A stretch of DNA of 64,000 nucleotides from Erythrobacteraceae bacterium CCH12-C2 (lineage in GTDB: Bacteria; Pseudomonadota; Alphaproteobacteria; Sphingomonadales; Sphingomonadaceae): assembly GCA_001556995.1 (NCBI GenBank), contig LSKF01000120.1:53536-117535 (forward strand). Reading direction: 5' to 3'. A program made the translations under genes and the position numbers. Position 1 is the stretch's first letter, and each line of letters begins with the position of its first letter. The notes beneath the pieces are model-generated. The model saw only the letters and a list, made by a program, of their open reading frames with translations, made no database searches and was not told the DNA's origin. Shown here in pieces: positions 20,811 to 21,358 of the stretch.

Positions 20811-20963
20811 GGCAAAGCGCCTAATGCTGCACGGTCCCAAGGGCAAGACACGTGTTGGCAGTGCCTGCCCCTCCACCATCCCGAGGATGGTCCCATTGCA
20901 TTAAAGGGGGAGGCCTGAACGGTCGCATCGCGACCGCAAGGCCGACCGGCCGCCCGCAGGTGC

Positions 20964-20982
20964 TCGAGCCCGCAGGGCTCGA
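20964..20982. promoter_or_regulatory. Perfect 8-bp hairpin in ilvE leader
   Basis: TCGAGCCC and GGGCTCGA pair around a GCA triloop. It lies between the terminator-like hairpin and the ilvE start and could shape the mRNA 5' region. Confidence 0.5.
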
Positions 20983-20995
20983 AACGCACCGAGGA

Positions 20996-21017
20996 CGAAC
21001 CCGCGGAGGCGGGTTCG
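20996..21017. promoter_or_regulatory. Perfect 9-bp hairpin in ilvE leader
   Basis: CGAACCCGC and GCGGGTTCG pair around a four-base loop. It follows the terminator-like hairpin in the direction of ilvE transcription. Confidence 0.5.
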
Positions 21018-21032
21018 CAAAACAAACAATGA

Positions 21033-21069
21033 AAAGGGCGCTTCCAGCCCGTCGGTGGAAACGCCCTTT
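21033..21069 (-). terminator. Intrinsic terminator or attenuator between tiny ORF and ilvE
   Basis: On the minus strand an 8-bp GC-rich stem (AAAGGGCG with CGCCCTTT) continues after one mismatch into five more pairs around a nine-base loop, and is followed by TTTCATTGTTTG. It lies 54 bases after the tiny ORF stop and about 220 bases before ilvE, the layout of an attenuator. Confidence 0.65.
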
Positions 21070-21122
21070 CATGGTCAGCGGCCAGGAAGTGCCGCTCACG
21101 AAGCCTCTAAGGGTATCCGAAA

Positions 21123-21179
21123 TTACCGATAGTGCCTCGCGCGGAAACTTGCCGACCTCTCTGCTGAACCATGAGACAT
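21123..21179 (-). CDS. Tiny leader ORF with extended Shine-Dalgarno
   Basis: ATG at 21179 opens an 18-codon frame, MSHGSAERSASFRARHYR, ending in TAA. Directly upstream on the minus strand, GAAAGGAGGTGATCC (21195-21181) is a 15-base perfect complement of the 3' end of alphaproteobacterial 16S rRNA, far more than needed for an ordinary gene. A terminator-like hairpin follows at 21069-21033, then ilvE. The peptide has no Leu, Ile or Val run, so it is not a classical branched-chain attenuator peptide; it is rich in Arg, Ser and Ala. It could be a regulatory uORF or a small protein. Confidence 0.5.
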   Translation of the reverse strand: MSHGSAERSASFRARHYR

Positions 21180-21180
21180 C

Positions 21181-21195
21181 GGATCACCTCCTTTC
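21181..21195 (-). promoter_or_regulatory. Extreme Shine-Dalgarno sequence
   Basis: GAAAGGAGGTGATCC on the minus strand matches the 16S rRNA 3' tail over 15 bases and sits one base before the ATG at 21179. Read on the plus strand it equals the 16S 3' end itself. Confidence 0.7.
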
Positions 21196-21358
21196 GCGCT
21201 AGTGTGCCAAGACCCTCTCGTTTCACCGGGGGCCGAGGACCGCGTTCGCCGCTGGCCTCGGGTGTTGTTTTGAATCATGTGATTCGTCAGGACAAGTCTT
21301 GTTTATTTCTTTTCCCACGTCATAATCACACTTCGCCGGTCGAGAACCGGGATGCAGC

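Follow-up and report, generated by a model that had tools for sequence, protein, structure and literature searches.

Does a tiny reading frame that precedes ilvE on the minus strand, behind a 15-nt Shine-Dalgarno (SD) sequence, control that gene, or does it belong to something else? We addressed this in the window, that is, the whole 64,000-nucleotide stretch of DNA analysed here. The initial annotation had listed an 18-codon ORF, a 15-base SD, a terminator-like hairpin, two perfect palindromes and ilvE, all of which are present on the minus strand, and had described the peptide as Arg/Ser-rich without Leu/Ile/Val runs, which we confirmed, as it lacks any Ile, Leu or Val. It had offered three interpretations, of which attenuation of ilvE did not hold up under comparison, whereas a stand-alone gene did and a different signal (ribosome capture) gives the best fit. 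The features on which the argument rests are:

21293-21301, minus strand: palindrome CAAGACTTG, column-conserved in alignment A3, whose CTTGTC half is the probable -35 element.
21272-21276, minus strand: GATTC, a GANTC (CcrM-type) site at the upstream edge of the probable -10 element.
21273-21268, minus strand: probable -10 element, TCAAAA.
21233-21261, minus strand: 5' hairpin CCGAGGCCAGCGGCGAACGCGGTCCTCGG, where the RNA is inferred to begin (covariation, 25 sequences).
21195-21181, minus strand: SD GAAAGGAGGTGATCC, 15-nt complement of the 16S rRNA 3' tail, 1 nt before the ATG.
21179-21123, minus strand: 18-codon ORF, ATG to TAA, peptide MSHGSAERSASFRARHYR.
21163-21173, minus strand: 5' arm CATGGTTCAGC of the long-range helix P1, in codons 3-6 (class-wide permutation test).
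21152-21182, minus strand: possible start-codon hairpin CCGATGTCTC / GAGAGGTCGG with the P1 5' arm in its loop (suggestive only).
21097-21141, minus strand: stop-codon hairpin CGCGAGGC...GCTTCGTG, whose upper part contains the stop codon (compensated pairs).
21077-21096, minus strand: hairpin AGCGGC-loop-GCCGCT with ACTTCC in the loop.
21079-21070, minus strand: P1 3' arm GCTGACCATG (CTGACCATG conservation and class-wide permutation test).
21069-21032, minus strand: Rho-independent-type terminator with a 9-nt loop.
20810-19734, minus strand: ilvE, aminotransferase class IV (Aminotran_4, E 2.1e-28), a neighbour outside the unit.

From its promoter and terminator sequences we infer that the unit is expressed as a discrete small RNA, which would start at about 21262 and span ~230 nt (21262-21032); ilvE begins ~220 nt beyond the terminator. 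A 291-nt region here folds better than 200 of 200 shuffles (z -3.6). With its loop of 9 nt, the terminator at 21069-21032 was not picked by our terminator scan, which admitted loops of 3-8 only. Exact AAAGGAGGTGATCC has a single match in the window, where 0.28 matches would be expected with up to two mismatches and at least one was seen in 23 of 100 shuffles; together with the recurrence across genomes described below, these figures led us to reject the idea that an SD had arisen by chance in intergenic DNA. The two perfect palindromes (20960-21018, minus strand) separate the terminator from ilvE and look like fast-changing intergenic hairpins because relatives (L015, L122 and L121) carry different palindromes after the terminator.

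Searching GTDB genomes for the SD followed by a start codon, 24-54 bases and an HY(R/S)-stop end yielded at least 119 loci, every listed match being 71 nt long; since the pattern demanded H-Y-(R/S)-stop, the C-terminal identity of the 119 listed loci is built in. Eighty titles among the matches listed are Sphingomonadales genera or proteobacterial bins without genus. Within Sphingomonadales, AAAGGAGGTGATCC with ATG, GTG or TTG (the only starts this pattern admitted) within 0-6 nt occurred in 90 of 196 genomes, one per genome and with a spacing of 1 nt in every listed match, and the reversed pattern in 0. A covariance model of 32 sequences (R1) matched 103 of the 196, including 13 genomes that lack the exact 14-mer, and all 13 of those loci have a near-perfect SD, a start codon and Ser as second codon. 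The ORF, the ribosome site and the hairpin, whose lack of conservation had been named at the outset as grounds for abandoning the initial reading, proved conserved. In wider samples the exact 20-letter core was found, always as a single copy, in 56 of the 385 genomes from the class and in 61 of the 398 from the phylum, two sets that overlap; here the pattern limited the start to A/G/T-TG and required TC in the second codon. One exact copy per matching genome, with its own promoter-like and terminator sequences, bears out the suggestion of a small stand-alone gene. The RNA is not universal, as 93 of the 196 Sphingomonadales genomes had no match to R1 and 156 of 190 class-sample genomes none to the Rfam family RF01867 at E<=1e-4, strict filters losing weak matches.

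In one genome (G018) both an MSHGS-type copy and an MSHC-type copy resembling the Caulobacter RNA CC2171 were read (L268, L269), and in three others (G325, G364, G383) an MSHC-type second copy was read (L265, L266, L267), the first copy being a strong model match. Such second copies in genomes with an MSHGS-type match suggest an old duplication. Six IMG/VR viral contigs (L272-L277) contain the 21-letter core, and a 24-aa peptide query against plasmids returned one chance-level match only (E 10, Streptomyces).

What is most strongly conserved are the parts that would contact the ribosome. The 16S tail was read as GGATCACCTCCTTTC in Erythrobacter dokdonensis (L221) and three further Sphingomonadales genomes, a set outside which the window's own 16S lies, and it reads GGCTGGATCACCTCCTTTCTAAGG in all four; it is from these related genomes that the SD is taken to complement 15 nt, which is essentially the whole 16S single strand after helix 45. 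The SD-16S duplex is computed at -28.0 kcal/mol and those of five variants at -22.9 to -27.4, compared with about -10 for SDs of 6-7 nt. In 29 loci from a search with RF01867 (L126-L154) the 15-mer is exact in 20 and near-exact in eight, the script finding none in one (L138), a locus that was dropped before counting. Twelve natural SD variants carry 18 substitutions, and 12 of the 18 retain a Watson-Crick or G-U pair with the tail as against 7 of 45 possible single changes, a descriptive count that is uncorrected for shared ancestry and transition bias and excludes the one-base-shorter form of L252-L255. The exact complement in 20 of the 29 loci and the G-U pairing kept by many variants make ribosome capture, already raised as an alternative signal, the one that fits best. 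No loop is invariant over as long a stretch as the 16S complement together with the start region.

A complementary, SD-sequestering segment within the RNA was also considered. In the window RNA the ACTTCC loop can pair with GGAGGT, not significantly better than in shuffles (z -0.8), which makes it a weak candidate. Across the family the internal anti-SD has a mean z of -0.61, with 10 of 36 below -1, and is clear only in part, as at ORF +42 (TGGATCnTCGCCTC) in some CC2171-like RNAs. The distant members L144, L152 and L154 carry a strong anti-SD (ACCTCCT; GATCCCACCTCCTTA in L154) ~70-130 nt past the start codon, inside or after the ORF, which could mask the SD.

The start codon beside the SD opens a constrained frame. 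In 33 of 33 non-redundant class RNAs the first frame-0 stop comes ahead of the terminator, 42-111 nt past the start, giving ORFs of 14-35 codons, whereas in the other two frames the first stop lies in this range in 8 and 10 of the 33. This set excluded L154, a doubtful member, and L188, whose 56-codon ORF exceeded a 120-nt limit; since that limit alone removed L188, the frame-0 figure is more properly 33 of 34. L188 has the same SD and start, followed by an ORF with a signal-peptide-like beginning. Of the 33 RNAs, 18 start with ATG, 13 with GTG and two with TTG, and all have TCN as second codon, features that the searches partly demanded. The ORF is thus open, frame-constrained and provided with a valid start, as expected of a translated small mRNA or a dual-function RNA.

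The first codons also take part in a long-range helix, P1, formed by codons 2-8 with the bases before the terminator. In 34 class-wide RNAs (208 before near-duplicate removal) these segments paired with a mean of -15.8 kcal/mol with their own partners and -10.1 with swapped ones (sd of permutation means 0.55), and none of 20,000 permutations was as low, although in five of the 34 (L151, L153, L154, L185, L192) at least 10 swapped partners pair better than their own. Inside Sphingomonadales P1 is nearly invariant; its 3' arm, as CTGACCATG, is present in 117 of 117 loci with DNA reaching it among the 119 matches listed. This arm abuts the terminator stem, where an antiterminator might be sought, and formation of P1 leaves the stem intact. 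As for the local hairpins, the one at the stop codon has compensated pairs in 67 sequences (e.g. CG 40 / GC 22 and UA 37 / CG 18). The 10-pair 5' hairpin is paired in 91.5% of cells in 25 Erythrobacter-like sequences, with 12 cells changed on both sides compared to 5.0 in shuffles (0/500 as high), five pairs with a double change compared to 3.0 (25/500 as high) and a covariation score of 0.270 compared to 0.185 (0/500 as high). The possible start-codon hairpin is paired in 95.5% of cells in 32 sequences but lacks double changes and does no better than column shuffles.

The whole layout resembles RF01867, the family of the Caulobacter sRNA CC2171, whose model matches 21204-21035 over its full length (1-159) with 48.6 bits and E 3.3e-9. 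Because this score is below the family cut-off of 75 bits, with no hit at gathering level, we call the window RNA a relative of RF01867 and not a member. In the alignment CGAAAGGAGGUGAUCC and UGUCUCAU are identical, and a long-range helix closing onto the terminator, a hallmark looked for in assessing the relationship, is P1 itself. In the class sample RF01867 matched 34 of 190 genomes at E<=1e-4 and 7 of 190 above the cut-off (35 matches, 30 with loci inspected), and among 14 named controls only Caulobacter vibrioides matched at E<=1e-4; this search itself set no limits on start or second codon, which the script displaying its loci did. CC2171 is a Caulobacter sRNA from Landt et al. 2008, as cited in PMC4117421, and RF01867 is included in a Mesorhizobium huakuii sRNA table (PMC5596092). 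In the literature searched, made up of papers other than the original report (Landt 2008), CC2171/RF01867 appears as single table entries with no function. According to Schrader 2014, two earlier predicted Caulobacter ncRNAs are translated (PMC4117421), and CC2171 may therefore already be known to be translated. In PMC11005374 the table on Hfq goes by CCNA_R names.

Upstream of the unit lies CAAGnCTTGT; CAAGNCTTGT has no match in the 64 kb window other than 21293-21301, which was scored on both strands because the site is palindromic. In their upstream 190 nt, 108 of 140 non-redundant loci have a GANTC 8-24 nt past a CTTG, while ten control pentamers reach 3-32 of 140. The arrangement of a CAAGnCTTG palindrome at the probable -35 and GANTC at the probable -10 is conserved across Sphingomonadales loci. 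Caulobacter has 96 cell-cycle-regulated start sites with GANTC within 50 bp upstream, and where the GANTC lies between -10 and -35 activation comes at 40-60 min (PMC4287350). By analogy, the conserved GANTC (CcrM) promoter site could link the Sphingomonadales RNA to chromosome replication.

Comparison of the sequences thus establishes that the RNA is widely conserved and present as one exact copy per matching genome, together with complementarity to 16S, constraint on frame and length, covariation in P1, a terminator of its own and independence from ilvE (below). The reading that we tentatively favour is a free-standing RNA, related to CC2171/RF01867, that captures 30S subunits via the 16S tail and is opened by initiation. 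Its 5' part would pair with the complete single-stranded 16S 3' tail (15 bp), capturing 30S subunits or being captured by them, and the adjacent start codon would let a captured subunit start an ORF of 14-35 codons, the sequence of the peptide being of little consequence. With all 15 bp formed, 1 nt is left before the start codon, which should be too little for that codon to sit in the P site; the fully paired 30S and the P-site start codon are probably alternatives, and a waiting state of full pairing, followed by initiation, is plausible. In the unbound RNA the start region would be locked in P1 against the base of the terminator, initiation would have to open P1 and so expose its 3' arm, and the opened RNA may then act in trans or be turned over. 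The closed and ribosome-opened states could report or buffer free 30S. The capture function itself, the opening of P1 by binding and the output of the opened RNA, be it in trans or through its own stability, are proposed on the strength of these patterns, and a 15-nt SD is also explicable as plain strong initiation. In its wider form, the proposal is of a dedicated ancient alphaproteobacterial RNA that holds 30S by the entire 16S tail and is fold-switched by that contact, a free-ribosome sensor or buffer with, in Sphingomonadales, a GANTC-bearing promoter; we regard this as possible and put it forward with more reserve. An RNA selected for pairing with rRNA would give a direct handle on the sensing or allocation of free 30S subunits, and the covarying P1 helix makes a two-state model concrete.

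A usual trans-acting base-pairing sRNA, in which the ORF and SD would confer a dual function or set the lifetime and the seed would be either the 3' arm of P1 or a hairpin loop (in many Sphingomonadales, ACTTCC), is an unlikely though serious alternative. Its relative RF01867 is classed as an sRNA in Rfam, and a terminator-like hairpin past the stop codon was picked by the script in 208 of 213 loci (four of the five misses are sequence ends, the fifth L043). The ACTTCC loop is common in the order but varies in part, whereas it is the 16S complement with the start region that forms the longest invariant stretch. Furthermore, Sphingomonadales terminators end in short U-runs, unlike typical Hfq sRNAs.

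We consider it rather improbable that the unit is a small mRNA whose product is a peptide of lineage-specific sequence. The constraint on frame and length would be in keeping with this, as would an ORF of 57 nt in all 119 matches listed (39-69 nt being allowed by the pattern, and the stop-to-CTGACCATG distance varying from 37 to 61 nt) and the motifs common inside groups (MSHGSA.., ..TWIVAS.., KRCHLAGIAR). However, beyond MS the peptides of one group have little in common with those of another, codons 11-13 show at least about as much variation at their first two positions as at the third, and the change from HYR to HIR or HTR at the C-terminus is accompanied by a change in the stop hairpin. 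C-termini (HYR, HIR, HTR, YYL, RETKA) differ between groups and within the order, and with no conserved C-terminal arrest sequence and peptides that differ between groups, a conserved peptide or arrest-peptide leader was rejected. Two members from genomes of 8.0 and 7.3 Mb (L304 and L305) have an ORF of only 14 codons and the common peptide end KRCHLAGIAR. SEP1 of Sinorhizobium meliloti, with 23 aa and the top translation efficiency of 54 candidate sORFs (PMC10117765), was considered as a family member and dropped; the identity is unsupported because its reported pI of 4.18 (PMC10117765) disagrees with the 5.36, 5.36, 5.71 and 8.06 computed for four 23-aa members.

Improbable, too, is an abundant decoy or store by which idle 30S subunits would have their 16S tail sequestered or protected, translation of the RNA being incidental. 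The 15-nt tail complement with wobble-preserving variants would suit such a role, as would the single nucleotide left by full pairing, which on structural grounds should not permit P-site seating, but the starts are ATG, GTG or TTG (partly demanded by the searches) and frame 0 is constrained.

There remains ilvE. We examined 148 loci of the window type, comprising the 119 listed matches and 29 from the order sample, a few of which share a genome. Of these listed loci, 103 have the start of ilvE no more than 800 nt away and 19 have it at 868-2967 nt; in 15 with 1.5 kb or more of downstream sequence (six with only 1.5 kb) no ilvE was found, the other 11 not being assessable. Genes replacing or preceding it encode Na/H exchanger, SoxYZ, PepSY, ClC, Prismane, 5-FTHF cyclo-ligase and 3-hydroxyacyl-CoA dehydrogenase proteins. 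Around other class members we took 30 flanking proteins at 17 loci; a Pfam family was assigned to 24, and these are of many unrelated kinds (HisKA, CinA, M13 peptidase, MFS, ThiC, phage-integrase type and others). For 30 such members, at least two of which are in Sphingomonadales genomes (L136, L183) and so not strictly of other orders, a heuristic gene caller placed the first downstream ORF on the same strand as the RNA in 16 cases and on the other strand in 14. Despite the shared strand and order and the proximity in 103 of 148 listed loci, a leader-peptide attenuator of ilvE, as the layout had first suggested, is thus rejected as highly improbable: Ile, Leu and Val codons are absent, linkage upstream of ilvE is only partly conserved, with other genes between, and neighbours and their strands vary. 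An attenuator-like order beside a biosynthetic gene can be mere synteny.

The unit does share with the amino-acid attenuation leaders (ilv/leu/trp) a short ORF, hairpins, a terminator and a biosynthetic gene in the same order, but it differs from them in having no regulatory codons, in a gene linkage that is only partly conserved and in relatives that adjoin unrelated genes. As a possible dual-function RNA from an alphaproteobacterium, small and with a tiny translated ORF, it recalls rnTrpL/peTrpL of S. meliloti (PMC10117765); rnTrpL, as described there, is leaderless and corresponds to the trp attenuator, whereas the window RNA has no parent operon and is most conserved in its SD. In Staphylococcus aureus (PMC13009471) an SD-antiSD helix extended beyond the canonical core likewise affects initiation, there through two extra pairs on the aur mRNA and predicted for many mRNAs, in contrast to the 15 nt on one dedicated RNA per genome of the window type. 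The closest likeness is to CC2171 (RF01867), which has the same GAAAGGAGGUGAUCC-start-UCUCAU core, closing helix and terminator, and from which the window form differs by its 18-codon MSHGS ORF, stop-codon hairpin, extra 5' hairpin and GANTC promoter site. Across RF01867 and its relatives, the most conserved parts are those of a ribosome contact, namely the 15-nt 16S complement, the start codon and a bounded frame.
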